NCBI GenBank assembly: GCA_950106755.1
Contig: OX467089.1
Span: 5,272,501-5,336,500, forward strand
Origin: Climacium dendroides
Lineage: Eukaryota; Streptophyta; Bryopsida; Hypnales; Climaciaceae
Reading direction: 5' to 3'
DNA length: 64,000 nucleotides
Part shown: in pieces, positions 2,843 to 60,316 of the stretch
Numbering within the stretch: the first letter of the stretch is position 1
How the letters are laid out: each line of letters begins with the position of its first letter
Position numbers and translations under genes: made by a program
Notes under the pieces: generated by a model
Told to the model about the DNA's origin: nothing
What the model saw: only the letters and a program-made list of their open reading frames with translations
The model's database searches: none

Positions 2843-5533
2843 TCAAGTGTAGGATGCGAGACTTTGGTTGATAACGTCAATTTGAGCAGCAGGAATCTTG
2901 ATCATGCATTGACGAGTATCTTTTCGAATGCCAGACTTCCACGCTGTCATAACAGCATTTGTATGCTCCCAAAGTGGCGGTTCAGTTTCATCCACTTTCC
3001 AACGTAGACCTCTTTCACTGTCCCATCCAGTGTAAAAGTCTTGAACATCTTCATCTCTCGATGTTGGACGGAAGTACTGAATGCGTATACAATTAGGTTT
3101 CTCCGGATTACAATTTGGATCAGATAACACCCTTGCAATCCAAACCGGATGACTGTCACCATCTGCGGGTCGAACTGCAACAAAATATCCTTCAAAGAGA
3201 TCTCGACCCACCCTAAAGGATGGTTGTGGGCGACCTCTCAAAGGGCCTACGTACGCGTCATCTTCCCCAAACTCTTCACGATCCTCGCCGTCTTCGTCTA
3301 ATTCATCTACTTGAGTTGCTTGAACACGGCTCGTAGGCCAAAAACCATCCTTCAAAATAGAAGATGAAGGTAGTGGTTCTAGCAATGCTACCTTGACACC
3401 TTGCCAGTAGTGCACTACGTGCTCATAGCGTCTTTGGTACTCTCCAGTGCGATCTTGATTGTACAAATGCTCCCAATACCTCACGAATCCGGATATGCCC
3501 TTCAAGATGTCCTCTGCACCTTTCATTGGACTCGGCAGAACTGCTTCTAGTACTCCACGTGGCCACAAACTTTGCCCTTCAGAGTCCTCCTTCCACAATT
3601 TCATTCCATGACCAGTCCCCTTCGGCAACCACTCTACATCAGTGCACAACATTTTGTACTTCATGACTGGACACCCAGTCGAGTCAAGGTAGAACTTCAC
3701 TTGTTGTGGCTTTGTGTGTCCAACCATGATGTCATTGCCGTCCAAAACTTTGCCTGCTATAAAACCCTTGAAATCTGGCACCTCTTCGATGAGGTGAGGG
3801 ATTGTTGGAATGGATTCCACATCCATAAACGACTTCATAAGTGCAGGAATTGTAAGGAAGTTTTCCTTCTTCAAAAGCATACTCCATCTTCCAAAGAGCG
3901 CATCAATGTCGTCATGAGTATGACCCACAATCATGAAGTTCACGTACACTTCACGAAAGATCTTGTTTGCAACAAGTAGAGACCAATAACAGAAAACAAA
4001 TCTATTCTTGTTATCTCCGGTGGCATTATCCATCTGCACATTCAAAATAGGAGGCAACGGCATCCCTGGACATAATGTTTCTGGTAGCGGAGGTAGTGAT
4101 GCTTCGCAAACTTTGGCACCCTTTAGTATTGCCCTGGATAAATTTGTGGATCCAGACCCCGTAAACAATTGCCGAGAAGACGATTTTGGTGGCAATTCCA
4201 AATCTCGGAGCAACTTTGCCATGGAGCCAATAGTGTAGTTTGAGTCGTGGGGAAACATATCCAAGCCATAGTGCGCATATCGAACATCAGCATGACCATG
4301 CGCAATCATGCCAGTGACCGAGACGGACAACTTCATGAGCCCATCAAGTTCTTTAGTTTTGTGGGAAAAAACCGGAGAAGCGGTCTTGGCATGGTCCATC
4401 TTGTCATGTATGATCGTCAAACATTCATGTGGAAACTCATGCGAGCGGTAACGATTTGCGTAGTACAGCTCCCTATGTGCCCGAGCAATAGCCAAATGTT
4501 TGTCAAGCCTCCTTGACCATATCAAAGCACTTTGAGATCTAGCAATACAACTCCTTCGTAGCTCTTGTAGTTTGTCACACACTGAACACCGAGCAAAATT
4601 ATCACCAGGTTTTTTCACCTCGTACTCTGAAAACTTCGAGGACCTGATCTTACTCAGGTTTGAAGTAGAAACTTCGGGTAATCCGAAGGCTACATTGACA
4701 TCATTAATTTCTTTCATCTTACCCTTCCACTGAAAAGTAGAGGGAAGACACATGGATACGACCTTGTCCCCTGACTTCAAAGTCCGAGTACGATGTGGCA
4801 TGTGATCTGCCTCCTTTTCAAGGATGTACTTTAGTGTGGCAGTTGCTTGTTGAGTGTGCTTTCTCGGCTTCTCCAATCCTACATTTCCATGGTCTCTTGC
4901 CTCTCGTTCGTCCTTCCAATATTTGAGGTACCGATAGAATGTAGCCTCCGGGACCCCAGAAATATGCATCCATGCTCGCATGCACACGTTGATGCCTTCA
5001 ACGGTCACTGTCTTCCTCCCACGTGCATCAAGATGCACTGACCTATGTACATCAGTCTTCATGTGTGACCTGAACTTGAATGATGTATTGGAGTACATTC
5101 TCTCGCGGAAGGCCCGAATCTTCTCCCTTGAAAACGGTTGAACGCAATTCTGAAAACAACAGACTTTGCTAGACACCAAGTTGATGCACTCTGGAGTGAG
5201 GAGTTCCTTAGACCTGCGGGAGGTCACACGAGGTGGATTCCTAAGGATACTTGAATATGGCCGTACAGATGCTAGAGGTTGTGGATTCAAGAGGCAGGCT
5301 TGTAGCTGATTGAATCTGTCTCGCGCCTCATGGTCGTAAAGACTTGCTCCCGCACAGTGGACTCGTTTAATCGGCCAAGCAACCAAATAGTAAATCTGCT
5401 CCTGAGGGATATCCGCTTCTGAGAATGTCTTGGTGATGTGAACTGCTACATGGGTATCTCCAAGGGGACCATTAGCTCCAAGCACGAGGTCTGAGTTGAC
5501 ACTATGGCAAGTCCCTTCGCCAACAAGTAGACC
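2843..5533 (-). pseudogene. DUF7869 transposase-like gene, unit A, main part downstream of the insertion
   Basis: The frame is open for about 895 codons, from the insertion junction at 5533 to the stop at 2843; the first Met-type codon (GTG) is only at 5485. Order of parts: a basic region; an HTH-like block beginning GINVCMRAW; the Cys pair CSVC; then the DUF7869 core. Three acidic blocks stand out: HDKMDHAKTA, QMDNATGDNKNR and GHTHDDIDALFGRW. Their spacing and D/N/H content resemble an RNase H-fold (DDE-like) transposase; that assignment is inference. The C-terminal ~180 residues hold a BAH-like Trp/Asp-rich module (VRPADGDSHPVWIARV ... YTGWD). The 5' end lies at 9090-9301, beyond an inserted element. 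It lacks the intron present at the equivalent point of the unit B copy. The core itself carries no in-frame stop. Confidence 0.7.
5529..5533. repeat. target-site duplication (AGACC), left copy
   Basis: AGACC here matches AGACC at 9090-9094 exactly. The DNA between begins TG (5534) and ends CA (9089). Confidence 0.75.
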
Positions 5534-8500
5534 TGTCGTATGCGCAGTTAGCAGTAAGCATCCTTACAACCACAAATTGTTGCAAGACGACACGAATTAT
5601 CGGTCCAGGGAACTTCTAGGGTGATATCGATAAAGTTAGAAGCATCCGGATTGAGACTACTCACTTAATCCTCTTTCTTTCATTTACCCTCCCTTATTCC
5701 GGAAACTTAGTACATTCCAGATTCCGTTCCGGATCCGGATACACCCGGAACTGAGTTCCGTCTCTCTTCCGTCACTGGTTTTTGTTGCCTCTGTTTTACC
5801 CTCAGAGGGTCCGCCCTTGATCTAGAAAGGGGTGGGGACTCACCACTTGTGCAATTATCCTCTCTATACTCTAAATCTACTAAAACAACACACCCAAGAC
5901 AACAAAGTTGTAGGAGGAGGAAGGAGTATTCTCTCACAGTTTCCGGATTGGACAATCCGGAATCAGGTCACACAGAGCAATTCTCACACCTCCCTTTACT
6001 ACAACGACGGATCTGAACTCATAGACCAAAGGGACAGAGTTTCAAGGGAAAGACAATGTACCAAGGGGGAGGTTGGTAGACCTTCCGAAGTAGCGGGAGT
6101 TCCTTTCCTTTGGCGGTTGCTTATCTCCGCACAGAACCCTCCTGGTTCCGGACTCGCAGGGACCTCTACCTTCTTACCCGGATTGCCGTTCCGGCAATTT
6201 AAAGGTACATCACACTTACACTCCCTTACTCAATTCACATCTCTCCCACTCAACTCAACACCAAGGGATTCGTGGCTCAAGATCCGGATTCCTCCTCTCC
6301 CTCCCTTCTCTTTCTTCAGTACACGGATACACACACATGCAACACTGAACCAAAGATTCTGTCTAAGCAAAGTGCAGCTAGAGGCACCCTGACTAACTTA
6401 GATTAAGAAAAAGGAGATCAAAAATACATACGTGAAAGTACTAAGGTCGAATGGAGTAGAATGGAATGACAGGCAACTAACTTGCCTGCCCTTAAAATAC
6501 TAACACAAAAACCCAAAGTCAACTCCTAAAAGCCTAAAAAGAAACCCGGAAATCCAGGCAACCAATCACTGAAAACCCCGGGATATCCGGAAAGATTGCT
6601 AACCGCTGCCCTGGATAACCGGATCCCTTACTATCCGCCTAAGATCCCGGAAACCGGATTCATGCTCGGAATCCAATTCCGGATGCTACACTAACCCTAA
6701 TGTCTTGGTTTCCGTCCCTTCTTTGACCGGCTCCCCGCTTGGCTGGAAGGCGTCCCCTTTGTACCCTTTGCTGGCGTGGTCTTTGCTGTGGCCCGAGTTT
6801 GGATATGACGCGTTGCAGGAGACGGATCGCTGTCGTCTTCGGTTCCGGAAGTGGAGTGGGCACTCTCTTCCTCGGAATCTTCGATGACTTGAATTTCCCC
6901 TTCCTTCTTCGGTGTGGTGTCCTCCATTGTTGCGGGTTTGCTTCTCTCTTCCGATGTGGTCTTCTGCATATGCGCAAATCCCTGCGGATTAGATCGAGCC
7001 AGATTGGTCATTCCACCGATCCGGCTGATCAGATCTCCCCTGACTTGCTGCCCTGGAACCTTGAATGTCCCGGTCATCAAGTTCGGCATTGTTTGCGCCT
7101 TGGGAACTTCCGGAGTTGAGAACTTGGATGGCACCGGAACCGATTTCGCGTTAGACTCCGGTTCCGGCTCCGGTGTCGGTTCCGAGGCTGGCCCCAAGTT
7201 CAACTCTGTCATCCGTATCTTACTAGCGGAAGGTTCGGCTGGTGTGAGTATCCCCCGCAAGCCCTCCATCCGTGTTGCCTGATCCGCCACTGGTTTCCCT
7301 GGGGTAGCTGCAACAAAAGGAAGTTCCGGAAAGGTGGAGAAGTCCATCGCATGGTTTGGGTCGATGGCCATCAGCAACTTCTGAATTTCCTTGAAAATCC
7401 TCTCTATCCTCGCGGTGAAGTCCACGAGAATGGTAACTACCTTGGTTCCGGTAATGTGGCCTTCTGAGATCATCTTTGAGTCAAACAAGGCAGCTTTGGT
7501 GATGATGTCGGCTTTGATGTTGACTGCTCCGGTTAAATTCTTGACCAGAGCAAGGGCCTCTTTCTCTTTCTCCTTCGCAGCCACCATTTCCCCTTCCGCC
7601 CAATTCACCCGAGTCTGGAGTAGGTTCCGTTCCGCCTCCAACTCTTGGATCCGCTCGTCCCTCTTCTTTAGATCCTCCGGCTTTGGCAGTCGCTTGACGG
7701 CTTCCACGATCTGATCCGGATCTACCTTCAACACTTCCGCGGTATCTAACACCAAGTCTGACAACCCGTCATGAAGTACCTTGGCTTCACGTATCCAATC
7801 AAACCCCGCATTGAAAAATGCGGATTCTGTTTCCGTTTCAGGTCCTCTACTGGACTCCCCCCTCTCCATTGCCGGCGGCTTGATTCTTGAACCCGGATCG
7901 GTCGACTTCCTCTTCTTGGTCCTTGGATCCGTCAGCCGTTCCTCGGGAAGCTCCTCCGGCTCAGACTCAACTGGATCTTCCGCTTCCTCCCCGGAAAGTC
8001 CATATGACAAGAGGGTCTTTCCGGTGTCGTACTGAATTATCTCCGCCGCATTCAAAAGTTCTTGCTGATGGTACAGATGAAACAGATAAGTGCTAACTGG
8101 GCTTGCCTTCGCTCGGGTCACGTGATCTGCTAGTTTAGCCACTATCCCGGCTATGACCCTACCCCAATGCACTACCCGATTCTCCATAGCCCCAAAGATG
8201 GTATTGGCCACCGTAATGGTAACCTGCGTTGGCTTCTCCGGATACATGATCGGAATTAAAAACTCAAGTAGCCGTCTGTGTCTTTCGTCCTTGCACTCGC
8301 TGATAGCGAATCCGTCCTTAGGGTTGGTAGACCCCGCGAACTTCCCCGCTACGAAACGATCCGTCCTTGATGCCAAGCCGTTCCCACTCTTCCGGAACTG
8401 GTATACGTCCGCCCAGATGTCTTCGGTCCACGCAACTGGCCGCCCTCTCAAGGTGAGCTCGTACTGGTTCGGAACTCCGTGAAGTAGTTCTTGGATCATC

Positions 8501-9089
8501 TCCTCACTCTTGAGGTTCCACGGTCGGTGTAGTAAACCGACACATCCTAACCTAGTCAAGTCCTCCTCCAACTGTTTGTGTAGTTCCGAGCTATCCGGAA
8601 TGGCCGGAGAGATCATCCGGGCGGATACCGCTATCTTCCGTACTGGTCCGGATGCCATAAGATCTACGCGAGAAGGAAAAAGTAGTTCTACCTCAGTCGC
8701 TAACTCACCACTCTTTCTCTCAACTACTCACAAAAAAAAAACAGTCTCAGGAATACTGAACAGAAAAAGTGAAGAGGAAACCCTAAGAGGACAGCTTAAG
8801 TACTAATCTGTCTTTCTACGGTCTTAAGGACAACGGCTACAGGTCCGTTGTCTCAACGGTATCCTACTTCCGTAGCTACGGGGCCTATACGGTAGGTTCT
8901 TGCGTTCCGGATGAGTCCGGATTCCGGATCCGGATAAGTTCCGGTTTAGGGTTGTGCTGGAACACTAATTTTCTAATTCAAGCTATCTAGTCTAAAAATC
9001 ACAATCTAACTATAATTTTTTTCATTTTTTTCTATTTTTGCACCTACTTCTTGTGTTGTTGCTCTGTTTCCAGATTCCGGATTCCCACA
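5534..9089 (-). mobile_element. element C1: TCCGGA-rich retroelement-like insertion
   Basis: A 3556-bp insertion bounded by TG...CA and a perfect 5-bp duplication (AGACC), the hallmark of LTR-retrotransposon-type integration. It carries one long minus-strand gene (8658-6697) and about 1.1 kb of 3' noncoding DNA (5534-6696). That 3' part is shared with copy C2 up to an end near 37830. I could not find a pair of long terminal repeats, reverse transcriptase or integrase, so it would be non-autonomous. The hexamer TCCGGA and the longer ATCCGGAT recur throughout, in coding and noncoding parts, far more than in flanking DNA. It sits inside the coding exon of the unit A DUF7869 gene. Confidence 0.65.
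6697..8658 (-). CDS. element C1 protein, gag-like / putative plant transposon protein
   Basis: An intact 653-codon frame with ATG at 8658. Residues ~1-220 form a compact domain (HRPWNLKSEEM, an R-G-R-P-V motif, a long helical segment with YLFHLYHQQELL). This resembles the plant transposon / retroelement capsid-like proteins annotated as putative plant transposon protein. Residues ~230-280 are acidic with a KKRKS nuclear-type basic patch. Residues ~320-400 form a coiled coil (ERIQELEAERN). The tail is P/E/T-rich with a final basic stretch (KKGRKPRH). No polymerase, protease or integrase motif is present. The paralogue at 34712-36655 aligns over the full length but has a Trp-to-stop change. The function is inferred from its position in a mobile element only. 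Confidence 0.6.
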   Translation of the reverse strand: MASGPVRKIAVSARMISPAIPDSSELHKQLEEDLTRLGCVGLLHRPWNLKSEEMIQELLHGVPNQYELTLRGRPVAWTEDIWADVYQFRKSGNGLASRTDRFVAGKFAGSTNPKDGFAISECKDERHRRLLEFLIPIMYPEKPTQVTITVANTIFGAMENRVVHWGRVIAGIVAKLADHVTRAKASPVSTYLFHLYHQQELLNAAEIIQYDTGKTLLSYGLSGEEAEDPVESEPEELPEERLTDPRTKKRKSTDPGSRIKPPAMERGESSRGPETETESAFFNAGFDWIREAKVLHDGLSDLVLDTAEVLKVDPDQIVEAVKRLPKPEDLKKRDERIQELEAERNLLQTRVNWAEGEMVAAKEKEKEALALVKNLTGAVNIKADIITKAALFDSKMISEGHITGTKVVTILVDFTARIERIFKEIQKLLMAIDPNHAMDFSTFPELPFVAATPGKPVADQATRMEGLRGILTPAEPSASKIRMTELNLGPASEPTPEPEPESNAKSVPVPSKFSTPEVPKAQTMPNLMTGTFKVPGQQVRGDLISRIGGMTNLARSNPQGFAHMQKTTSEERSKPATMEDTTPKKEGEIQVIEDSEEESAHSTSGTEDDSDPSPATRHIQTRATAKTTPAKGTKGTPSSQAGSRSKKGRKPRH

Positions 9090-9301
9090 AGACCCTCCTC
9101 ATTGTAAAGAGTGACACATCTTGTATTCCAAAGATGACGCGGAAGTCCTTCGCATTCAGGAATGCCTACATTCATCCCTTCCAAAACTGGAAATTCATCA
9201 TCCGAGGATTCCATGAAGTCGTCAAAAGTCGCAGATGAAGTCATGTCACGTATTTGGAAAACCAAATGAAAAGCAGTATTGAAGTCAATGTCTGGCATCA
9301 T
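9090..9301 (-). pseudogene. DUF7869 gene, unit A, 5' coding part upstream of the insertion
   Basis: The open segment begins with ATG at 9301 (an AG acceptor sits at 9346-9345) and runs to the insertion at 9090. It is acidic (MESSDDEF) and contains IPECEGLPRHLW, which aligns with IPDCEGIDRDGW in the unit B DUF7869 gene. If element C1 and one copy of the 5-bp duplication are left out, the frame here reads straight into the 5533-2843 segment without a shift. So these two pieces were one exon. The break presumably disables the gene unless the element is spliced out. Confidence 0.65.
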
Positions 9302-9369
9302 ACTCCAATCGACCTGATTGACGGAGTAAATGGTGTTGGTATTTCTGAGCGGCAATAATATCCGAATGG

Positions 9370-10092
9370 CAATTCAGTGCGACTGGCGCTGAATTGTATT
9401 TCAGCTCCCAGGACACTAACATATCGTCGCAACCAATTTCATGCAATAGGTGATTGCACTTTAGCGCGACCAACTCTGAATTGCAATTTAGCACCCACGA
9501 TGTAGACATACGTCGTCACTAATTCCACTCTCTGCATGATGAGAATTCAGCGCCAATTGAGCTAAAATAGCATCAAAATGAATTTCATTCTCTGCGAGCT
9601 GAATTGCAATTCGGAACTACTCGCACTGGAATACCGTCACAATATATTTCATTCCCTCCGTGACGACACTTCAGCGCGAGTCGCGCTGAATTGCAATTCA
9701 GATCCAATAAGTCTGACACTTCAGCGCGAGTCGCTCTGAATTGTAATTAGGCATTAGTCGTGGTGTAATATCGTCAAAATACATTTAACTGCGCATATCT
9801 ACACTTCAGCGCGACTCGCGCTGAATTGCAATTCAGCTCTGATAGATCTGGAGTGTCTCCAGAGTATATTCCATCACGATTTTATAGAATACAAATCTAG
9901 ACCAGCTTACTTCAGTGCACATCAGCGCGAGTCGCGCTGAAGTGTCGACACTACATATTCCTTTACTTTTGTGAATACACTTCAGCCCGACCAGGGATGA
10001 ATATCAATTAAACGCGAGTCTAGGTGATCCATCTGCACAAAGACAATGGAAACTCTGGTAGAAGCACTTCAGCGCGAGTCGCGCTGAAGTGC
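9370..10092. repeat. family-A palindrome cluster upstream of the unit A DUF7869 gene
   Basis: Five strong copies of the family-A palindrome (arms TCAGCGCGA / TCGCGCTGA, one central base) lie at 9671-9689, 9721-9739 (one arm mutated), 9806-9824, 9922-9940 and 10069-10087. Degenerate copies lie at about 9370-9393 and 9541-9560. The copy at 10064-10092 extends to a 29-bp palindrome. Several are followed by a second palindrome, CTGAATTGCAATTCAG. The cluster lies just upstream of a splice acceptor (9346-9345), so it probably sits in the leader intron of the DUF7869 gene. Confidence 0.8.
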
Positions 10093-11700
10093 ATTTCATT
10101 TTCATTGTAGTCAAGGAATTTCTATTTATAGTAAGTCCGTCTTTCGCGGAGGAGTTTATATAGAGTTCTGCGCATTCTCCAGACTGCGCTCGTCGAGTGA
10201 CTTGAGAACTTGAACATTTCATGGATAATAGTCGGACTGACTAATCACAACGTGAACTGTGCTAGAGATCATTGAGCACCTACGCAAAACAACTACCAAT
10301 CATGGAATGAAAGATCTTATGCAAACCTAGAGGCTGGAATGACAGATCCTAGAAGCTGGTAAATGGAGAATTCTCATGTTTTCAAAGGGGTCGGAGTGGC
10401 TTACTGTAATTCCTATGCGATGGATCTCCTGCTTGAGCAATACAACGGGCAACAACCGGCGTTGTACCAATACAATTGCGGAACAACACTAATCAAACTC
10501 TTCTAAAGACATAATAGAACAAGTTGAAAGCGCAGAGAACAACAACAAAGCTCAAAGTTGATGCAGTTGAAGAGAAAGGTGGAATGACTGGAATGCAACT
10601 AAACTGCCGACGTCCACTCAACTCCTCGGCGGGAAGGAAAGAGCGTGAAGTCAGTTCTCATTTTTGAATGGCGTACATTCTAATATCAAGTGTCCCCAGA
10701 ATCATGACGGCCTTGCCACGTAAACCTTTCGATATCCACATGCAATCCTGAATTTAGTGGTTGGCCCCACGAAAATAATGGGGTCACTACACTTTTCATT
10801 AAGTTTGTGTTGACTTTTAAAGTCCGTAGTGGCATATCCCCTTTGGCAGTCTTCAAATGCGGACAGCAGAAGCTACTATCCAAACCCTTTTCTACTTTGA
10901 CTTTAAAATTTTGATCCCAATTGTTGACCTTACAATGCACCTAAGTTCATTATTAGGAAATGAAGGTTCCGTTACTTATACTAACCATGTGGCACCTAAC
11001 GCGGCTTGCCATATATATAGCACACACTAGAATAATGTTAATTTTGGCTAGAAAGTGCCTTTACTGCAAACTTCCCCACCTTTAGTCGGCGGGAATATTG
11101 TTCTTCTTCTAAAGTGAATGAAAAGTATGATTTTAAAAAATTCCTAATAATGTTGGAATGTTTAAAGAATGTTCCTTTTCTTGCAGTAGATTTGAGGGTT
11201 TAGGATGGGAACATTTTGCCTTCAATTTCAAGGGTTCACGGTCTCAGGGTTTAGGGTTTAGGGCTTGGAATCCACGCCCTAAATTCAAATAAATTGTCTC
11301 CAGCAAGTCATCAAAAAAATTTGAAAGGAAATTACATTTACCATTCCTAAATTCTTTTAACCTTGCCTTTGAAGAGGTTCTAATTTTTACCCATGCAAAC
11401 CAAAGCGGAAAATATGGAGTTCAAAACGAACAACAAAATACAAGTTCTAAATAGATTCGAAATGTACAATCTATGGCCATTTCTTAGAAAAAAGAATTTT
11501 TTTGTTTGAAAATGAACAAAAATCAAAATAGCCGTCACGGTTTTACTTTCATTCTAAGGTTCATTAAGTGCTAATTCAAAACAGTAGAAAAACTGTCAAG
11601 TGAAAAGAGTAATGCATACAAGAACTTCAAAATTCAAAGCTCAACCATATCTGCATGACCTGAAGGGCTCATAGAAAAGTTAAATTAAATTATTTTCTTT
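10093..11700. other. no gene recognised; short telomere-like tract
   Basis: No coding frame of substance. At 11246-11263 there are about three TTTAGGG-type repeats, too few to be a telomere. Nothing else recognised. Confidence 0.4.
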
Positions 11701-11724
11701 GTTAGGTGCCCAATTATAGATTAT

Positions 11725-12005
11725 TGGATTATCATTGAAGAGCATGATTCTAATTTCTACCTATTTGACCTTCCTCATTTGTACTTCCCTTGCATGTTTT
11801 TTCTCACTTTCTCAAACAAAGTACGACCCCGGCCATTTTTGCATGAACTTGGTCCACGTGGAAAAATTCAGTTACATTATTTTTTTAAAGAGGTGTCCAT
11901 GGGTTATCATCAAAGAGGGCGTTTCCAACTTCTATGTTAATTTCTTTTTCCATTTGCACTTCCATTGCCGTTTTTTTTCAACTTTCTCGGACAGTCCAGG
12001 TTTAA
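11725..12005. repeat. diverged direct repeat, two copies
   Basis: Two roughly 150-bp copies share the order TTATCAT...AGAG...TTCTA...TTTGNACTTCC...TTGC...TTTTTT...TCAACTTTCTC. They start near 11730 and 11903. They adjoin the 174-bp array. A 92-codon frame here follows the repeat and is not believed to be coding. Confidence 0.45.
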
Positions 12006-12033
12006 AAAAATAAATAAGTGACGCACATATTTC

Positions 12034-12960
12034 TCAATCAAGGCCAATTTAAATGGGCCCAACAAATTTGTCCACAAGTTTCAAATTTTTTTTGGTTGTG
12101 GGTTTGGTCAATGCATGTGTGGAAAAAATTAAATTAGTGACCCACATGTTTTTTTAAACGTAAACTCTTAAAATTGACTGTACTTTCTAGTACCAATGTC
12201 ATGAAATTCAATCAAGGCCAATTTAAATGGGCCCAACAAATTTGTCCACAAGTTCTAATTTTTTTTTGGTTGTGGATTTGGTCAATGCATGTGTGAAAAA
12301 AATTAAATTAGTGACCCACCTGTTTTTTTAAAACTAAACTCTTAAAATTGACTGTATTTTGTAGTACCAATGTCATGAAATTCAATCAAGGCCAATTTAA
12401 ATGGGCCCAACAAATTTATCCACAAGTTCTAATTTTTTTTTGGTTGTGGGTTTGGTCAATGCATGTGTGGAAAAAATTAAATTAGTGACCCACCTGTTTT
12501 TTTAAAACTAAACTCTTAAAATTGACTGTACTTTGTAGTACCAATGTCATGAAATTCAATCAAGGCCAATTTAAATGGGCCCAACAAATTTATCCACAAG
12601 TTTCAAATTTTTTTTTGGTTGTGGATTTGGTCAATGCATGTGTGAAAAAAATTAAATTAGTGACCCACATGTTTTTTTAAAACTAAACTCTTAAAATTGA
12701 CTGTATTTTGTAGTACCAATGTCATGAAATTCAATCAAGGCCAATTTAAATGGGCCCAACAAATTTGTCCACAAGTTCTAATTTTTTTTGGTTGTGGATT
12801 TGGTCAATGCATGTGTGGAAAAAATTAAATTAGTGACCCACATGTTTTTTTAAAGCTAAACTCTTAAAATTGACTGTACTTTGTAGTACCAACATCATGA
12901 AATTCAATCAAGGCCAATTTAGATGGGCTCAAAAAATTTGTCCACAAGTTCTAAATCACT
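12034..12960 (+). repeat. 174-bp tandem array, forward arm
   Basis: The block AAGGCCAATTT recurs at about 12040, 12213, 12388, 12562, 12737 and 12910, a period of 173-175 bp. Each unit includes GGGCCCAACAAATTT, a poly-T tract, TCAATGCATGTGTG and GTAGTACCAA. Copies are very similar. Satellite-like, noncoding. Confidence 0.85.
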
Positions 12961-13424
12961 TGAACTATACATCATCATATTTAACAATTTCTAGTTTCAT
13001 GTGACATTCATTATAATAGATTGAAATTGTTTCAATCAGAGTATAATGAATGTACTTAGTAGTAGCCTTATTAATAATTGTGATGTTGAGAGTCATAATT
13101 ATGATGTAGTTTCACCACAAATCGCTTAAAATAAATAACGCTTCATCATGAATTCAATTTACTAGCCTCAGTCATTATGATGTTGGTACCCATAATTACA
13201 ATTTAAGGTCACTACAAACTCCCATTAAGCGAATAACGCTTCACAATAAATATCTTAACACACTTCACAATCAAGCATTGTAATTCAAGGTACTAGTGAT
13301 GATATTCATAGTGTACTATGAATATAGTGGCATTGTACCAAACAAATGTTTACTAAATATTGTTGAGGTCAAAGTAAATCTACTTAATGATCATGGTTAG
13401 TAGTATGTAATGTTTTTCCAAATG
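12961..13424. other. unique AT-rich spacer between the two 174-bp arms
   Basis: About 460 bp between the oppositely oriented arrays. It holds short AT-rich inverted words (for example ATTCATTATA / TATAATGAAT near 13007-13053) but no gene. Confidence 0.5.
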
Positions 13425-14395
13425 CATTGACCAAATCCACATCCAAAAAAAATTTGAAACTTGTAGACAAATTTGTTGGGCCCATTTAAATTGGCCTTGA
13501 TTGAATTTCATGACATTGGTACTACAAAGTACAGTCAATTTTAAGAGTTTAGCTTTAATAAAACATGTGGGTCACTAATTTAATTTTTTCCACACATGCA
13601 TTGACCAAATCCACAACCAAAAAAAAATTAGAACTTGTGGACAAATTTGTTGGGCCCATTTAAATTGGCCTTGATTGAATTTCATGACATTGGTACTACA
13701 AAATACAGTCAATTTTAAGAGTTTACGTTTAAAAAAACATGTGGGTCACTAATTTAATTTTTTCCACACATGCATTGACCAAACCCACAACCAAAAAAAA
13801 ATTAGAACTTGTGGACAAATTTGTTGGGCCCATTTAAATTGGCCTTGATTGAATTTCATGACATTGGTACTACAAAGTACAGTCAATTTTAAGAGTTTAG
13901 TTTTAAAAAAACAGGTGGGTCACTAATTTAATTTTTTCCACACATGCATTGACCAAACCCACAACAAAAAAAAAATTAGAACTTGTGGACAAATTTGTTG
14001 GGCCCATTTAAATTGGCCTTGATTGAATTTCATGACATTGGTACTACAAAATACAGTCAATTTTAAGAGTTTAGTTTTAAAAAAACAGGTGGGTCACTAA
14101 TTTAATTTTTTCCACACATGCATTGACCAAACCCACAACCAAAAAAAAATTAGAACTTGTGGACAAATTTGTTGGGCCCATTTAAATTGGCCTTGATTGA
14201 ATTCCATGACATTGGTACTACAAAGTACAGTCAATTTTAAGAGTTTAGTTTTAAAAAAACAGGTGGGTCACTAATTTAATTTTTTCCACACATGCATTGA
14301 CCAAACCCACAACCAAAAAAAAATTAGAACTTGTGGACAAATTTGTTGGGCCCATTTAAATTGGCCTTGATTGAATTCCATGACATTATACCTAC
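13425..14395 (-). repeat. 174-bp tandem array, inverted arm
   Basis: The same unit as in 12034-12960, in reverse complement. TTGGCCTT recurs at about 13491, 13665, 13839, 14013, 14187 and 14361, a period of 174 bp. Together the two arms make a roughly 2.4-kb inverted repeat with six copies on each side. Confidence 0.85.
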
Positions 14396-14469
14396 CAAAA
14401 AGTGAAGTCAATTCTAAGAGTTTTGTTTTAATAAAACATGCAGGTTACCAATTTATGTTAGTAATGTGT

Positions 14470-14945
14470 GTAAATGCTCTAGGCACTAGAATGTGGTGTT
14501 TGCAGGACTTTGAAGTCAAGCAAAACTTAACGAAGTTGCTATTTTAAGTAGTTTAATATTTCCAAAAAAACTTTGTAAAGTCTAGTTTTAGCATCAAACA
14601 TCTATAGAGTACATTTCAAACAACTATAGAGTAGATTTTAAGAAGCCATATGTTCATTGGGGTTATACATGTTAGGCTTTGTAACCTCAAATCTTTTTGG
14701 TCACCAATTTTTTAGATTTGACTTCTGAAAAGAGGGTTGAAATTTTTTTGCAGTTTGAACACCTTCATGGTCAAACATTATAATCTTTCACTGTATAAGT
14801 GATATTGTTGTCTTTTCTTTTCTTATAAGATCTCTAATATGTGAAGTTTGAATTAGTATGGTTAAAATTTAACAAAAATTGAAACAACTTATGGAAATGT
14901 TGGCATTTTGTTCAATTTCAAAAAAATTCCAAGTTACTCAAAATA
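14470..14945 (+). repeat. dispersed repeat, copy 1 (inverted copy near 61.1-61.7 kb)
   Basis: Blocks in 14470-14945 recur in reverse complement at about 61090-61700 in the mirrored order. These include the poly-T/TTGAAAT tract, ATGGTCAAACATTATAATCT, CCCAATGAACATATGGCTTC-like and GATGCTAAAA-like words. Noncoding; family unknown. Confidence 0.5.
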
Positions 14946-15034
14946 GGCCTTAGCCTTTGTATCTCCGTTGATTCTAATTGATATTGATATCCATCTATGC
15001 GCACACCATGTCCACTTATCTTCCATTCAGAGAT

Positions 15035-15155
15035 CCTTGTGAGACACCCTTTCAATCTCGGTTCCGAGTATAGGCCCTGGGTATACGTTGTGCAGGTATC
15101 ATTTGTGAGACCCCCTCTCAAACTCGGATCTGAGTATAGGCCCAGGGTATCAAAC
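15035..15155 (+). repeat. direct repeat, two ~55-bp units
   Basis: GTGAGAC-CCCT-TC-AACTCGG-TCTGAGTATAGGCCC-GGGTAT occurs twice, near 15035 and near 15106. Noncoding. Confidence 0.5.
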
Positions 15156-15382
15156 AGATCAGGGGCGGGTATCAATTTGATCAGGGGCCACAATTCAATG
15201 AACGACGGAGTGACGATGGACGGAGTTCAACCATCGGTCGTCGGGTTTCCATCCCAGTCGTCGTCTCTTTCGTCCGAAGAGGGTCGGCTGCTGGCTGGTC
15301 GCCCAGAGGTGGCTTGCTTTTCTTCTCTACTGCCGTAATTTTCTTCTGTGCTGTCGGAGGTGGCTTGCTTTTCTTCTGTGCT

Positions 15383-16005
15383 GTTGGAGGTGGCTTGTTT
15401 TTTCTCTGTACTGTCGGACAGACACGAGTTCTTCAGTGGCACTTTTTGTTTGTGAGAGTTTGGGTTGCGATTCAGGGTGGAGCACATTTTGAGGGTTTAG
15501 GGTTGTCATTCAGTTCCGAGGCTTCTCTTCACGGAGGTGGCTTGCTTTTCTTCTGTATTGTCGGACACACGAGTTCTTTAGTGGCGCTTTTTGTTTGTGA
15601 GAGTTTGGGTTGTGATTCAGGGCGGAGCATGTTCTGAGGGTTTAGGGTTGTCATTCAGTTCCAAGGCTTGTTCTTCACGGAGGTGGCTTGCTTTTCTTTT
15701 GTATTGTCGGACACACGAGTTCTTTAGTGGAGCTTTTTGTTTGTGAGAGTTTGGATTGTGATTCAGGGCGGAGCATGTTTTGAGGGTTTAGGGTTGTCAT
15801 TCAGTTCCAAGGCTTGTTCTTCACGGAGGTGGCTTGCTTTTCTTCTGTATTGTCGGACACACGAGTTCTTTAGTGGCGCTTTTTGTTTGTGAGAGTGTAG
15901 GTTGTGATTCAGGGTGGAGCACGTTCTGGGGGTTTAGGGTTGTCATTCAGTTCCGAGGCTTGCTCTTCACGGAGGTGGCTGCTTTTCTTCTGTACTGTCG
16001 GACAC
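15383..16005 (+). repeat. 146-bp tandem array carrying a TTTAGGG word
   Basis: Units start at about 15383, 15531, 15677, 15822 and 15969, a period of 145-148 bp. Each full unit holds GGAGGTGGCTTGCTTTTCTT, GTCGGACA, GAGTTCTT, TTTTTGTTTGTGAGAGT and GAGGGTTTAGGGTTGTCATT. Hydrophobic frames across the array look spurious. Confidence 0.75.
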
Positions 16006-16089
16006 ACATGAGGACCTGCGTTTTGAAGCAATTTCCCGGCCTGATTGCTTCAATCAGTTACGGTAGAGGAGTTGTGTTTTGAAGGAGCT

Positions 16090-19261: not shown

Positions 19262-19274
19262 GTATGTATGCATT

Positions 19275-19293
19275 TCAGCGCGGTTCGCGCTGA
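19275..19293. repeat. family-A palindrome, intron 1
   Basis: TCAGCGCGG-T-TCGCGCTGA, 14 bp downstream of the donor of intron 1 (19262-19382). Unit B has its own-family palindromes in the intron at the same coding position. Confidence 0.8.
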
Positions 19294-19382
19294 TGTGTCA
19301 AGTTTGGCTCAAGTCAACTAGCAATGCCAATTCAAAGATCATTAAACCACCTTGTCTAATAAGTGTTGTGCACGATCCTCAG

Positions 19383-20729: not shown

Positions 20730-20749
20730 GTATGTCCCTTAACTGCCGA

Positions 20750-20833: not shown

Positions 20834-20884
20834 ATTGTCACTGTCTACAATTGTATTCTAACCCTCTGCTTCTCTCCCTTGCAG

Positions 20885-44315: not shown

Positions 44316-44335
44316 TTCAGAGCGGTCGCTCTGAA
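44316..44335. repeat. family-B palindrome in the conserved intron
   Basis: TTCAGAGCGGTCGCTCTGAA, in the intron between 44488 and 44195. Confidence 0.85.
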
Positions 44336-44445
44336 GTGGCTTGGATTCATTCCATTACAGTGGAACAATGTGACACGATTGTGCCATTGTCCAAGGCATT
44401 GGAATAACATGAATGTGGACTCGACAATATCTACTGTATTACAAA

Positions 44446-44466
44446 TCAGACCGGGCGGTCTAAACT
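44446..44466. repeat. variant palindrome in the same intron
   Basis: TCAGACCG-GG-CGGTCTAAA: same length class, with arms changed to TCAGACCG/CGGTCTAA. It matches the TCAGAC...GTCTGA variant found in the acidic coding exon. Confidence 0.6.
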
Positions 44467-46357: not shown

Positions 46358-46690
46358 CCTATTCAGTGTAGATGTTCACAACTGTCTACTTATAGACAAT
46401 TCTATACCATTGACTGTGCGTGATATCTAGTGTTTGGGCTTGATTTCCTGCTATTTAATTGGGTTTCAATAAAATTTCACAGCGGCTTCACTATAATAAT
46501 TGATCGGGTTCTCTGGATCCTATAGTACAATGTGAAATGATCATAACCTAGGTTCTATGCCCCTCTATCCTCTACAGTCTTCCCAGATGAATCATTCAAT
46601 TCATAGGTGAGAGATACTGGTCTCACCGTACCCGATCTACACGAAGATGTTATTTCATCGAATGCTCACTTCAGTGAGCCATCCGAATGA

Positions 46691-48598: not shown

Positions 48599-48668
48599 CG
48601 AACCTAAACCGAACCTAGATCCATCGAACCCAATCCGAACCTAAGCCGAACCTAAGCCGAACCTAAAG
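48599..48668 (+). repeat. short tandem CCGAACCTAA repeats
   Basis: About six copies of a 10-16-bp unit containing CCGAACCTA. Noncoding. Confidence 0.6.
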
Positions 48669-49155
48669 GAAGCAACATCAAACTACTAAAATCATAAGTT
48701 CCTCTCTAATGTCACAAATGCTATCATTAATAGTAGAGGCTTGTGCTTATTATGTTACGCATTCATTGTACCACATATTAGTGAAATTTTGATATATTTG
48801 AATAGAATGCATGATAATGATTTCAATAAGTCTTTAAAATAATTATTTTAAATATTTTGTGAAAATATTTTCAATCATGCATACATAGAAATCGTATTTT
48901 CACACAATGTAATATTACAAAAATAGTAGTTTGCAATCACTTCTACAAAGGGTGATATTATAGAAATAATTGAGTTGCTGCAATTAAGGTGATATTAAAG
49001 AGGATCCAGAGGATGATATTATAGAGGTAATAAATTCATTGCTTCTCTTGGCTTTACACTTCTTTGCACTTCTATAATTTTGTGCTTTCGTGAGCTTTGA
49101 GCTTTCATGATTTCAATTTTCTATTGCTACTACCAAATGATTTTGAGAAATTCAT

Positions 49156-49344
49156 TCAATTGAAGCAATTTGGGATTCCACAAAAATTAAGTTGCTCACA
49201 AAGGTTTTGAGATTTATTAAGGTTTTTTTTCAATTCTTCAATTTGGGTTGCCATTTTTTGTAACAATGGAATCAAATTTCTAATGCATTCTAATGTATGT
49301 GTATCTTTTTTAGTATTCATCATTGCATGTATTTCATTCAGCAT
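49156..49344 (-). pseudogene. coiled-coil mini-frame in array unit 1
   Basis: 62 codons; the core NTKKDTHTLECIRNLIPLLQ is followed by a Glu/Lys-rich helix. The same core is found in unit 3 (50474-50785), and in a form broken by a deletion in unit 2. The family is not recognised. Probably a remnant of a coding gene carried by the parent element. Confidence 0.3.
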
Positions 49345-50473
49345 TCATTAAATTTTCATTGTTTATTTCAGTATATGCTTTTTTATTAAAAAAATTATAT
49401 GAAGATTTTAGTGATTTTTATTTGAAGATTTATTGAAATTCTTGCTTTGCATTCTATCTAATACATTAAAATTCTTATGAATTTCTAATGGTGAATGCAT
49501 AGCATAGCAAGCGCCAACTGCTAATCATACTATTAAAATTAGAACTCCCTTTGTAATAGCCCAAATGCTACCATTCATACTTAGGGGTTCGTGCTTGCTA
49601 TGCTACGCATTCATTGTACCACATATTAGTAAATTTTTGATATATTTCAATAGAATGCATGATAATGATTTTGATAAGTCTTTAAATTAATTATTTTAAA
49701 TAGTTTATAAAAATATTTTCAATCAGGCATACATAGAAATCATATTTTCACACAATGTCATATTACTGAAATTGAGTAGCACTTCACAACCACCTCTAGT
49801 ATCCCTTTTTACCAAGGGTGATATTATAAAAATTATATAGTCGTTGCAATTGAAGGGATATTAAAGAGGATCCAGAGGATGATATTATAGAGGTAGCAAA
49901 TGCGTTGCTTCTCTTGGCTTTAAACTTCTTTGCACTTCTATAATTTTGGGCTTTCGTGAGCTTCGAGCTTTCATGATTTCAATTTTCTATTGCTACTACC
50001 AAATGATTTTGAGAAATTCATTCAATTGAAGCAATTTGGGATTCCACAAAAATTAAGTTGCTCACAAAGGTTTTGAGATTTATGAGTTTTTCTTTTCAAT
50101 TCTTCAATTTGAATTGCAATTTTCTGTAACAATGGAGTCAAATTCCTAATCTATGTGTATCTTTTATAGTATTTACCATTGCATATGCTTGATGCATCAT
50201 TCAATAAATTTTTATGCTACATTTCTATATATGCTTACTTTGAAAAAAAATTATACAAAGATTTTAGGCATTTTAATTTGAAGATTTATTGAGATTTTTG
50301 GTCTGCATTCTACCTAATACATAAAAATTCTTATAAAATTCTAATGATGAATGCGTAGCATAGCAAGCACCAAATGCTAGCCATACTACTAAAATCATAA
50401 GTCCCTACGTAATATCACAAATGCTACCATTAATACTAGGGGCTCATGCTTGCTATGCTATGCATTCATTGTA

Positions 50474-50785
50474 TCACATATTAATAAAAATTTGATATAT
50501 TTCAATAGAATGCATGATAATGCTTTTCTTGGCTTCATATTTCTTTTGCATTTCTATAATTTTGTGCTTTTGTGAGCTTTGAGCTTTGAATTTCAATTTT
50601 CTATTGCTACTACCAAATGACTTGATCCGATTTTCAATTTCACAACAATTGAATTGTTTAAGAAGCTTTGGAGGTTGACAAGTTTTTCCTTTAAATTCTT
50701 CTATTTGGGTTGCCACTGTTTGTAGCAATTGAATCAAATTTCTAATGCATTCTAATGTATGTGTATCTTTTATAGTATTCATCAT
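50474..50785 (-). pseudogene. coiled-coil mini-frame in array unit 3
   Basis: 103 codons, the longest version: NTIKDTHTLECIRNLIQLLQ, then ATQIEEFKGK, a basic middle (SSNRKLKFKAQSSQKHK) and a helical tail (EMQKKYEAKKS). Pattern of a leucine-rich coiled coil. No family recognised. Confidence 0.35.
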
Positions 50786-51805
50786 TATTTATTTCAATAT
50801 ATGCTTATTTAGAAAATTATATGAAGATTTTAGTAATTTTTATCTAAACATTTATTGAAATTCTTGCTCTGCATTTTATCTCATACATAAAAAATTCTAA
50901 TGAAATTCTAATGGTGAATGCGTAGTATAGTAAGCGCCAACCGCTAGTCATACTACTAAAATTAGAACTCCCTCTGTAATAGCACAATTGCTACCATTAA
51001 TACTTAGAGGTTCGTGCTTGCTATACTACGCATTCACTGTATCACATATTAGTAAATTTTTGATATATTTCAATAGAATGCATGATAATGATTTCAATAA
51101 GTCTTTAAAATAATTATTTTAATAATGTTATAAAAATATTTCCAATCAAGCATACATACAAATCATGTTTTTCACATAATGTCATATTACTGAAATAGAG
51201 TAGCACTTCACAACCACCTCTGATATCACTTTTTACTAAGGGTGATATTATAGAAATAATATAGTCGTTGCAATTGAGGGGATATTAAAGAGGATCCAGA
51301 GGATGATATTATAGAGGTAGCAAATGCATTGCTTCTCTTGACTTGAAACTTCTTTGCACTTCTATGATTTTTTGCTTTCATGAACTTTGAGCTTTCATGA
51401 TTTCAATTGTCTATCGCGACTACCAAATGATTTTGAGAAATTGATTCAATTGAAGAAATTTGGAATTCCACAACAATTAAGTTGTTCACAAAGTTTTTGA
51501 GATTTATTAGTTTTTCTTTTCAATTCTTCAATTTGAATTGCAATTTTCTGTAATAATGGAGTCAAATTTCTAATGTATGTGTATCTTTTATAGTATTTAC
51601 CATTGCATATGCTTCATTCATCATTCAATAAATTTCTATGCTACTTTTCTATATATGCTTACTTAGAACAAAAATTATACAAAGATTTTAGGCATTTTTA
51701 TTTGAAGATTTATTGAAATATTTGGTCTACATTCTATCTAATACATAAAAATTCTTATGAAATTTTTATGGTGAATGCGTAGCATAGCAAGCGCCAACCG
51801 CTAGT

Positions 51806-52746
51806 CCAGTACTACAACGATTCTTTTCCAAGTTCGCATTTCTTATACATGTAATCATATTAGCAATAGTATCGTTACTCATGAAAACTCCTTTTTACTA
51901 TTAATATAAATAAGATTTTTAATAAGTTAAAAGCTTCTAAGACATAAAAAGAATTTTAATTTAAAAAAAAAAGAATTTGCTAATTTGCTAATCTGCGAAC
52001 TTAATGTTTTTGCATAGTTCATTGCAACAACATAAATTTGTTGGGTCAACACTACAATAAAGCATCTAATGACCAAAAAAAACTATGGAGGACTTTGGAG
52101 ATTTAGGGTTACCTCATGTGATTTGAATTTCGAACATGATTTTATGAAATAGTTTGAAGATACTTAAACAAATGAGCTATCAAGGAATGTAATATTCATT
52201 TTAATAATTGTCCCAAAATATAAGTTATGCCACTACAAGTCCCCCCAAAATGCAAGAAGTGATAGAAGAAGGTATTTTGAAGACAATGTAAGCATCTCTT
52301 GTACAAAAGTACATACTTGAACATCTCCTACAATGTAAAACACAAGAGCATTAGAAAGATTCTGAATGCTTGGAAGAAGTTCCACATACCATACTAATCT
52401 CATCAACTGTTCACTTTTCATGAGCAACACACAGATAATGTTGTACTTTAGATGTTTGATAAAAATTAGTTCTGCATGTAAAGTCTTTGGGGGGATCTAC
52501 TAATCATCCAATTGAACATGTTGAATAGAAATGTCATGTTCTCTTGATGTGGCCTACAAAAGGTAGATCCCAAGGTAACAAAGTGACTCCAATTTATCCA
52601 AAAAGTAAGAAAGCTACTTGTTAGAAAAACTTGTACAAAATAAAGAAACAAAACATAACGTCTTTTTCTAATAAAACTACTCCTGGTACTATGGTACTTA
52701 GCAAAAATTCATTATGTACATACAACAAGTAAGTAGAAGTCTTCCT
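51806..52746. other. AT-rich, no gene recognised
   Basis: Short frames only. It may contain the 3' UTR of the adjacent minus-strand gene. Confidence 0.35.
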
Positions 52747-55780: not shown

Positions 55781-56535
55781 TTCAGGGCGGCCGCTCTGAA
55801 CTGAACGTGGGGTGACGATTGGGAAGCAATATGACACTCCGTTCAGTTCAGAGCGGTCGCTCTGAACTGAACGTGGGGTGACATTTCGGAAAGCTATCCT
55901 CTGTTCGATTCAGAGCGGTCGCTCTGAACTGAACGTGAGGTGACGGTTCAAAAAGCTATCCTCCGTTCGGTTCAGAGCGACCGCTCTGAACTGAACGTGA
56001 GGTGACGGAGACGAAAGCTATCCTCCGTTCGGTTCAGAGTGACCGCTCTGAACTAAACGTGAGGTGACGGAGACGAAAGCTATCTTCCGTTTAGTTTAGA
56101 GTAGCCGCTCTAAACTGCACGTCAAGTGACCGAGACAAAAGCTATCCTCCGTTCAGCTCAGAGCGGCCGCTCTGAACTGAACAGAGGGTGACTATTCATG
56201 AACGCTCCGAATTGACGGTGACGGAGCTCCGTCACCGTCCGTGCAGTTCAGAGCGGCCGCTCTGAACTGAACGGAGGGTGACGGAGCTCTATGACCCTCC
56301 CTACAGTTCAGAGAGGCCTCTCTGAGCTTCAGGTAGGGTCTTAGAGCTCCGTCACCGTCTGTTCAGAGCGTTCATGATTTGTCACCCTCTGTTTAGTTCA
56401 GAGCGGCCGTTCTGATCTATGTTTTGCATGCGCATTATTTAGATCCTAGTCCTCCGTTTTCCCAATTAGGCGCGATCACATGGATAAATTACGCATGCAT
56501 CCTGTTCCTCGCAGTTCAGAGCGGCCGTTCTAAAC
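55781..56535. repeat. family-B palindrome array upstream of the unit B DUF7869 gene
   Basis: Eleven palindromes. Six start exactly 62 bp apart (55847, 55909, 55971, 56033, 56095, 56157) with a conserved linker (CTGAACGTGAGGTGACGGAGACGAAAGCTATCCTCCGTTC in parts). Others are at 55781, 56247, 56307, 56397 and about 56515. Centres are often GGCC, so TTCAGAGCGGCCGCTCTGAA is a perfect 20-bp palindrome. The array ends ~640 bp before the ATG of the DUF7869 gene. Confidence 0.9.
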
Positions 56536-57178: not shown

Positions 57179-60100
57179 ATGTTTTCTTCGGACGACTCTG
57201 ATGGTGATGAGGTATTGTATATAACTTTCTACTCTCGTCAATTTTCACGTTTCTTATTGTACATTGCGTTCCTTTGTCATTGATGTCGTGTCAATTCTTC
57301 ATCGTTCGGTGTGCAGGGGTTTGCAGAATGTCAGGAAGAGGACGTGGACTTGGAAGCATATGCCGAGGCAAACGTAGACAATAGTCCCATCCCAGATTGC
57401 GAGGGCATTGATCGAGACGGATGGTCTGGGAAGGCATTGCTCGCAAAACATGCGGACGGCTCCGACTTTGCGGAAGTGATCATCATCAATGCCAATCCCA
57501 ACGCATGCATTGATGAACAGAGCAGGCTGGGGATGGATGACGTTGGCATTGTTGTCTTGGACGTGTACAACGGGGACCCCAACGTCGGAGACATGTGCTT
57601 GCGCTGGCCTATGCGGCAGGTGTTTCACCACAGCGAAAATGGGTACGTTAGTGTTTACGATCACGCTCACAAGCGAGAAGCTCTGGATAAAGAAATGGAA
57701 GGGAGTAGAAAACATGGGGGTGTGCGACAGTATCGTTATGATAGGAGAGCTCGAGCTGTCGCTTTACTAGATAAGAAGACGAAGATGGTATCACATGAAT
57801 CCATTGCAGAGGTCTTCACACAAATCTGCTACGATAATGAATGCACTCGTAAGTTCCGTCCTTCCACCATCCGTGTGCTTCGCACGGAAATGCACCTACA
57901 GACATTTCAAGTGAAATCTAGCAAAAATTTGGATGTTCATAGGACAATGCACAAAGCGGTTCCGAGGGGGAGGCAAGTTGTCACCTTAGAAAGCATAGAC
58001 GTCTGTCCACGTGCTTGGAGGATTCTTCACAACATCCCCCTCCGCACATTCGAAAGATACAGGGCCAAGGCCAAGGCTGGCGTCAGAGGCGCTCCACACG
58101 AGAACTCCAATCGAAAAAAGACAAGGACTGCCACTGTTCAAGGCATCAAGACTTTGCGCTCATTATTGGAGGCAATGGCTGACCACATGCCCCATTTGTC
58201 TCGCACCTTGCCCACTGGTGAAAAGGTTTGCCTCAAAGTTCTTCCGACCAGTACCGAATGGAAGCAATTACTAGCCACCATGAACAAGGTACGGCTCGCA
58301 ATGTCACCTATGGCATTCATATGAAAAGGACATGGTCGAATTGTCGCATCGACCACAATAGCTCATAGAGTCCTCCAACATCCAATGAAGTGCTTGTTGA
58401 ATACGCAGACTGAGTGCGCGTGTTTCTATTGTTTGTAGGCCAATGAAGAACTCGGGCTGTCGACACTCTCGCAATCATGTTTTAGTAAAATTCGAACAAA
58501 ATATTTTGCTGAGTACGTCGTGAAGGGAAGGGGAGATTCCTTCGCAAGATGTAGCATTTGTGACAATCTAAAGCAACTACGAGCTTCTTTTGCTCCTGGA
58601 TCGGAGGACTATCAACGAATCCAAAAGCGCTTTGAGAAGCACTTGTTTCTACAAGAAGCTTGTCGACATGCCTACTACCGTAGTAGATGGTTGTCCAAAT
58701 TACGGCCTATGCAACTTTTATCTATCATGCACGACAAAATGGATCATTCAAAAACAGCATGTCCTGCATTGGCAAGGAAAACAAAAGCCCTAGATGGGTT
58801 CATGAAGTTGCCCGTGAAGGTATCAGGGATTTTTGCACATCGACACGAGGATGGCAAATATGCACATTACAATTTAGACGTGTTTCCCAGCGACAGCAAC
58901 TTCACAGTGGGATCCATCGCCAAATTGTTACGAGATTTAGAAGGGCCCCCCGCAATGTCTTCACGGATGTTGTTCGAAGGAGCCGGAAGCACGGAACTAT
59001 ATCGAGCGTTGCTGCAAGGTAGCGAGATCTGTGTTGATTCTTTGGGAGATGTTCTTCTTCAACCTATTGAGGCTCAACCATTGCCACCGGTGCTACACGT
59101 TCAGATGGACAACTCTTGGAGGGAAAACAAAAACAGGTATGTCTTCTGTTTTTGGTCCCTGTTGGTGGCAAGACGCATTGTGAAAGAAGTGGTGGTATCC
59201 TTCATGATAGTGGGTCACACCCATGATGACATGGATGCATCATTTGGGCGATGGAGCATGCAACTCCGCGAGAAAGACCATCCCACCCTACCATCATTGA
59301 TGCAATCCTACATGGAAATGGAACAAGGTCCGTTCATTCCACATCTAATTGAAGAAGTGCCCGACTTCAAGGCCTATGTCAAACCTTATATTGGGATGCA
59401 CAATAAACAATTGGTAGGCCACTCTCATGGGAGACAATACAAATTCTTCATGGATGACAACGGATGGCCTATCATGCAATACAAATTGGCGTGTACAGAC
59501 ATTCTATGGTTGCTTGAAGGGAGATTGAAGCTATGGAAGGAAGATGTCGACCATAGACCTATACTTCCTCAAGGTGATCCACCGCGCGTGACCCCCAAGA
59601 AGATGACAAACGAAGCTGAGATTTTGCGTGGACTTGATGGATACATCCAACATTGGAAGGACATATCCAAAGAAGATGGGACGGTGGAGTACAAAACCCA
59701 CATGTCAAACTTGGTCACGTATTGGACCCGCGTGAGAAATGCCATGTTGGATGGAGGCGAAGAAGACTCCCCCCAATCTAATGAATTGCAGTAAGGATTT
59801 TGGCCTCAGACTTGACAACTCGGAGATCTTATGACAGATTTCATGCAAGATGGAAGGACACGTCAAGAGTTGGAGGCCGAAGATCTTTACATTGGTACTC
59901 TAGAGGGAAGGCCCCCACCAGCATACAATGTAGTCACTGATGTTCGTGACGGATTCTACCTCTTTGTGAGGCCAGGATTGGATTGTCTTGAGCCCATATG
60001 GCTCGGAAGGGCAGTAGAAAATCCACAATTTGATCCCACGGCCGTTCACTTTCGCGAAGTCTTAGTGCAATGGTACACTCCATGTGGAACATCCAAAGAT

Positions 60101-60316
60101 GTGCAACGGTTGTATGCGGGGTGGGACACAAAGCCTAATTTCAGATGGAAGATTGACCGAACGGCCGACAAAGCTGACTATGTTTCCACAGATAGTATCA
60201 TGGCATCATGGAAACCAAAGAAGAACGATGGAAATAGTTTCATTGCTCCTCGTCAACAAGTGCAGTTTGCAGTGGATCATTTACGTCGAATTGTTGAAGA
60301 AGAACAAGGTTGGTGA
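57179..60316 (+). pseudogene. DUF7869 transposase-like gene, unit B, two in-frame stops
   Basis: Exons in phase: 57179-57211 (ATG, MFSSDDSDGDE; donor GTATTG), 57317-58288 (donor GTACGG) and 58439-60316. Domains as in the unit A copy: acidic start with IPDCEGIDRDGW, basic region, HTH-like SIDVCPRAWRILHNIP, CSIC, then the acidic blocks HDKMDHSKTA, QMDNSWRENKNR and GHTHDDMDASFGRW. The end holds the VRPGLDCLEPIWLGRA / YAGWD module. TAA at 59792-59794 and TGA at 59813-59815 lie between core and C-terminal module; both fit C-to-T (CAA, CGA). An intron removing them cannot be excluded. The intron at 58289-58438 is absent in the unit A copy. Upstream lies the family-B palindrome array. Confidence 0.7.

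Follow-up and report, generated by a model that had tools for sequence, protein, structure and literature searches.

Why should two mirrored gene pairs, each joining a DUF7869 gene to a large divergent partner and each strewn with a palindrome of its own, lie side by side in moss DNA? The window analysed here is the whole 64,000-nucleotide stretch of the Climacium dendroides genome at positions 5,272,501 to 5,336,500 of contig OX467089.1 (assembly GCA_950106755.1), and window coordinates are used throughout. An earlier note, made from the letters alone, had described units A and B in it and suggested a two-gene mobile or selfish system. We find that unit A is mobile DNA, namely one cut-and-paste transposon carrying two genes. 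Further, we posit, with a probability of roughly 0.58, that such elements are giant transposons combining a DUF7869 transposase with a large anti-silencing regulator that would read the palindromes of its own family.

Ends, copies and gene pairing of element A

The earlier note had seen neither terminal inverted repeats (TIRs) nor unit ends. Unit A has both, along with a 4-bp target-site duplication:

2110..2113: left target-site duplication, ACAA
2114..2138, plus strand: left TIR AACACAATATTCAATATTTTGAGAG, pairing with the right TIR
2114..25553: element A from end to end, counting a 3.56-kb foreign insertion; two other copies, c16 and c9, cease to match at these ends
2843..9244, minus strand: DUF7869 gene A, interrupted by the insertion (PF25273 match, tblastn, start codon at 9244)
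5534..9089, minus strand: inserted TG...CA retroelement-like sequence with a gag-like open reading frame, foreign to element A
17807..23215, plus strand: large gene A, a five-exon model with homologs
25529..25553, minus strand: right TIR, read on that strand as AACATAATATTCATTAAAATGAGAG
25554-25557: right target-site duplication

The termini are imperfect inverted repeats of ~25 bp (AACACAATATTC... and AACATAATATTC...), matching at 20/25 bases. The size of the unit, earlier put at ~21-22 kb, comes to 23.4 kb with the 3.6-kb insert and about 19.9 kb without it. Copy c16 (19,502 bp) is ~98% identical to the window in long blocks from 2114 to 25553, with both ends coinciding, and copy c9 spans 18,905 bp. 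All three copies for which both ends are at hand bear 4-bp target duplications: ACAA in the window, TTCA in c16 and TGAT in c9. On the DUF7869 side, homology ends at the identical base in 11/11 sequences compared (the window and ten fetched copies, each with ~10 kb per side), three of which belong to a family C that is only ~82% identical near this shared end. The dispersed copies thus have shared ends inside unrelated flanks, save that c41a and c41b have common flanks and count once. It is this sharing of ends, together with the TIRs and the 4-bp duplications, that identifies unit A as a transposon. An inside-out layout, with the palindromes outermost and the genes convergent, is ruled out, as both palindrome clusters of unit A lie within one end-defined element.

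The divergent pairing of the two genes is confirmed in both units by the gene coordinates and by PF25273 matches at 2843-5485 (minus strand, E 2.4e-42) and 58520-59794 (plus strand, E 1.3e-46). Across the genome (412.6 Mb, 123 contigs) pairing was counted for family A, taking as partner any match to exon 2 of the large gene with at least 80% identity. Among the matches listed, 34 of the 52 scored DUF7869-A copies have a divergent exon 2 lying 9.0-18.3 kb upstream, as against ~0.09 such pairs expected by chance. The count used 72 of 73 large-gene rows, the one left out (C27:600109, 87%) being near no listed DUF7869 copy. In the same listing no partner was found upstream of the 52 copies in the same direction, and large-gene exons downstream within 25 kb number five, three of them from one tandem array that also supplies 4/34 pairs. 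In this array (G000:C3:15052862-15155000) four DUF7869-A copies and their partners recur at exactly 29,031 bp. Two of the 18 unpaired copies (c9 and c33) are accompanied by a divergent large gene after all, at an identity of only 43-44%; in the ten fetched copies, with their ~10 kb per side, a partner is in reach in four. In family A the two genes are hence mostly together rather than mostly apart, and the proposal of a two-gene mobile system is upheld for unit A by the paired copies, the common ends and the target duplications in 3/3 copies.

The genome holds at least 52 DUF7869-A matches, 12 of them without a stop in the matched stretch, and at least 127 large-gene matches. For DUF7869-B there are at least 100 matches; among the 51 listed first, at 92-100% identity, 37 are free of stops where they match. 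Given so many stop-free and nearly identical matches, family B looks recently active.

DUF7869 gene A is not continuous: its start lies at 9244 and a 3,556-bp insert sits inside it, so that the first codons occupy 9244-9095 and the remainder 5533-2843, tblastn placing the first exon piece at 9083-9208. The insert is flanked on both sides by the 5-bp duplication AGACC, and its site is undivided in c16. This 5534-9089 copy showed no long terminal repeats, and an inverted copy of the same gag-like TG...CA element, 87% identical, lies at 34642-37832. These inverted copies (5.5-8.7 kb and 34.6-37.8 kb) are accordingly ruled out as parts of the units, being a separate retroelement-like insertion. 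The two 5' ends do face each other across a spacer, as described earlier, its length being, however, not 7-8 kb: the start at 9244 gives a start-to-start distance of 8.6 kb in A, and that in B is about 11 kb.

DUF7869-A and DUF7869-B are homologous (29-50% identity in pieces). The family displays near-invariant Asp residues and a predicted transposase/integrase-like fold, which together make it likely that the protein is a DDD transposase. Sequence searches of the PDB gave nothing beyond one match at E 0.12, and Foldseek searches with DUF7869 nothing informative. The sole match in viral contig searches, L001, covers DUF7869 residues 409-607 at 26% identity; this distant DUF7869-like stretch lies at L001:10001-10534, in a contig filed as viral. 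Source-named DUF7869 homologs (9 among the 120 matches listed) come, together with the large-gene homologs, from two mosses.

Placement and family specificity of the palindromes

At up to 5 mismatches we counted 20 A-type and 34 B-type sites, as against means of 0.0 and 1.1, respectively, in 10 Markov sequences, which agrees with the earlier observation that each unit has a palindrome of its own. Their main groups are:

9373..10088: A-type, 9 sites upstream of DUF7869-A
17100..17752: A-type, 5 sites upstream of large gene A
19274..21930: A-type, in introns 1-3 of large gene A (19274, 20749, 20814, 21910)
23238..23326: A-type, 2 sites just 3' of the large gene A stop
44316..44464: B-type, two sites in a large gene B intron
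46321..47665: B-type array of 19 sites upstream of large gene B, spaced mostly by 47-51 or 68-69 bp
55781..56534: B-type array of 11 sites upstream of DUF7869-B, spaced mostly by 62 bp

The sites thus lie upstream of both genes, where they had been reported, and are not confined there, since they also occur in introns and past the stop. Outside the two B-type arrays, the other 4/34 sites fall in the gene region, two being intronic and two lying in a part of it that the gene model does not cover. Modelled coding sequence accounts for 38% of element A and is touched by none of the 20 A-type sites; if the sites are independent, the chance of this is 6e-5. The fourth modelled intron of large gene A has no A-type site. 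In introns 1-3 the first sites start 12, 19 and 37 bases, respectively, after the modelled donor sites. This proximity, and the fact that perfect palindromes would fold in RNA, could mean that they act in transcripts, as hairpins controlling splicing or stability or feeding small RNAs. We regard this as unlikely, for the long phased arrays upstream of both start codons (spacings of 47-69 bp and 62 bp) look more like features of DNA.

Two further families allow the palindromes to be compared with the genes that they accompany. Each has a palindrome type of its own, which in family C (c9) as in family D (L037, L038) stands upstream of the two genes and past the stop, with further sites at positions that would fit introns. 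The half-sites of all four families share the frame TYAG-nn-CG, where nn is CG in A, AG in B, CT in C, and in D a G plus one variable base (from a tally of 13 A, 25 B, 14 C and 21 D sites). The DUF7869 proteins of families A and C are 93% identical, the large proteins are only about 43% identical, and the palindromes are of different types; even those adjoining DUF7869 in family C are not A-type. Palindrome type hence follows the large gene, and it is mainly from this that we infer that the large protein, and not the transposase, recognizes the palindromes. The same comparison bears on the alternative that the palindromes are sites of the DUF7869 transposase itself, serving as internal enhancers or in synapsis, with the large protein being otherwise accessory. 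Transposase-bound short repeats are usual near transposon ends, and the arrays do stand upstream of both genes. Nevertheless, near-identical transposases go with differing palindromes, and the sites are internal and intronic, with none from the left end (2114) to 9373 or from 23326 to the right end (25553), which leaves this alternative improbable. That the palindromes are a mere by-product unread by any element protein, for example nuclei of host heterochromatin or preferred targets, draws on the fact that their binding is a prediction, but is very unlikely, as four families keep the placement and the half-site frame while changing nn, and the sites avoid modelled coding sequence.

The large partner protein and unit B

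Large gene A is modelled with exons at 17807-19261, 19383-20729, 20885-21872, 22104-22291 and 22415-23215. The model reads 1,592 codons up to its terminal stop and is broken by two TAG codons, at 20331 and 22781. Four exon stretches match moss proteins in the same order. A 219-aa open frame lies 3' of the stop (23432-24091). Unit B and the central repeats of both units comprise:

12034..14438: AT-rich 174-bp satellite arrays in the centre of unit A, inverted (12034-12954 and 13408-14438)
46293-38097, minus strand: large gene B, with its FCP1-like end at 38097-39143 (PF03031, E 9.2e-10)
48620..51866: central AT-rich repeats of unit B, about 70% similar to family C spacer DNA
57284..60316, plus strand: DUF7869 gene B, three open pieces with a PF25273 match
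61055: DUF7869-side end of element B, a shared stop of genomic matches

Large gene B has at least three internal stops (45847, 44542 and 43506). The ParB-like part of its product is homologous to large protein A and to four intact database proteins, which are open across the stop-bearing region of large gene B and keep an intact NGQHT motif. In view of the in-frame stops in both large genes, the window copies of both units are to be read as decayed. Within the large gene B region, 40592-41331 holds two tandem copies, 98% identical, of a 371-bp coding-like stretch.

The large gene had earlier been labelled a ParB/methyltransferase/FCP1-like fusion. The last part of this label stands: the C-terminal domain matches PF03031 in unit B (38.9 bits; gathering score 21.8) and in the homolog P0122 (E 3.1e-13, 50.2 bits). 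The usual catalytic motif of FCP1/SCP phosphatases is DxDx. Since this position reads DLNG in unit A and in the homologs keeping that stretch, and ELEG in unit B, phosphatase activity of the large protein appears doubtful. The other two parts lack profile support, there being no ParB or methyltransferase match for the large protein in Pfam, PHROGs or NCBIfam. The motifs behind the methyltransferase label were seen by eye only, namely DPMY and LVFAGVKAVSAC in large protein B and SCFAGGKLTCAA in A, where DPPY-type and FxGxGT-type motifs are what we take to mark DNA N4/N6 methyltransferases. We therefore rejected both labels as proof of identity, as they come down to short motifs with no profile match.

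This also bears on a reading of the unit as a eukaryotic counterpart of ParB-parS, in which the large protein would load and spread from the palindromes in a segregation or centromere-like function. The NGQH motif of the large protein, the clustered palindromes and the central satellites, similar arrays of which occur in copies of families A, C and D, speak for it. It is nonetheless very improbable: in addition to the missing ParB profile match, no plasmid or phage relative was found at E better than 0.2, and an integrated multi-copy element needs no partition.

All 22 source-named homologs of the large gene are from mosses, and 10 of the 14 Ceratodon homologs bear U- or V-chromosome gene names.

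Given its layout, its one end and its shared palindrome, we take unit B to be, very likely, one copy of a related transposon family. The end located for this unit is that on the DUF7869 side. Of the 41 other matches listed for window 60250-61650, 31 stop at query base 806-817, 20 of them exactly at 806, and a further 8 stop earlier, at 729-734. A 48-bp repeat lies beside the end (60931-61052), and the 8 early copies stop 77 bases short, as if the end of element B existed in one-unit and two-unit forms. For the second end, no convincing terminal repeat emerged in 25.6-46 kb. Between the two units, 28430-30229 holds what is left of a CACTA-type element, recognized by Transposase_21 (E 4e-61); a transposase-associated domain gives a weak match immediately upstream of it.

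Likeness to known systems and the proposed role

The earlier note could match the system to no named superfamily. Compared by description rather than by transposase sequence, element A fits Sola by general features. Sola elements are described as having a DDD transposase, 4-bp target duplications, short TIRs and in some cases lengths above 15 kb, and as occurring in Physcomitrella patens (PMC10741241); element A likewise combines 4-bp duplications in 3/3 copies with ~25-bp TIRs, a length of ~19.5 kb and a moss host. In Sola2-Fanzor elements the transposase-bearing end is conserved and the rest differs, a mosaic part-swapping similar to that of the families here (PMC3627910). The large FCP1-domain gene and the family-specific palindromes of the moss elements are, in contrast, unmentioned for Sola in the portions consulted of these two accounts (PMC10741241, PMC3627910). 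In the open PubMed Central literature we found no description of DUF7869 or of this element, though one may exist elsewhere, for example in Repbase.

The large protein itself invites three comparisons. With the FCP1/SCP carboxy-terminal domain (CTD) phosphatases (PF03031) it shares the C-terminal domain match of unit B and P0122, and differs by DLNG or ELEG in place of DxDx. ParB-parS, taken here from general knowledge, resembles the moss system in its clustered palindromic sites and the NGQH stretch, and differs in the ParB profile that the large protein fails to match and in a partition role of which the element has no need. The third is with VANC of the Arabidopsis VANDAL elements, which are of the Mutator type. 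VANDAL families have a family-specific tandem motif in noncoding DNA, in accessory-gene introns and upstream of the transposase gene, and from one family to the next the motif differs and so does the accessory protein (PMC5735166, PMC10398659). The moss elements likewise repeat a family-specific motif in noncoding DNA and introns. The VANDAL motif YAGTATTAY is, however, arrayed in one orientation, whereas the moss motif is palindromic. The likeness, known here from motif layout, would be one of working rather than of demonstrated kinship.

We consider a self-recognizing large protein with an anti-silencing role the best reading by analogy. The DUF7869 protein, going by its fold and invariant residues, would cut and join the element ends. 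The large FCP1-domain protein would act as a regulator encoded by the element: probably as a dimer, it would bind its own family's palindromes, both those 5' of the two genes and those within introns of the large gene. Once bound, it might sustain expression of the element, most likely by opposing host silencing in the way that VANC acts for VANDAL, and the family-specific nn in TYAG-nn-CG would confine its action to its own copies. More tentatively, and at less than even odds, mosses may have independently evolved an exchangeable self-recognition module in Sola-like giants. In it the large FCP1-domain protein would read TYAG-nn-CG as a dimeric code by which a family shields its own copies from silencing, and families would change identity by exchanging this module and retaining their transposase.

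To our knowledge, sequence-specific transposon anti-silencing is known mainly from one Arabidopsis system. If our proposal is true, finding this architecture in a moss, where the transposase is another one and the motif is a palindrome in which two bases change, would mean an independent origin, and the code linking motif and protein would be directly testable by partner swaps between families A and C. The family is also large and widespread in moss genomes, filling even the U and V sex chromosomes in Ceratodon, and its genes now pass as uncharacterized or FCP1-domain proteins.
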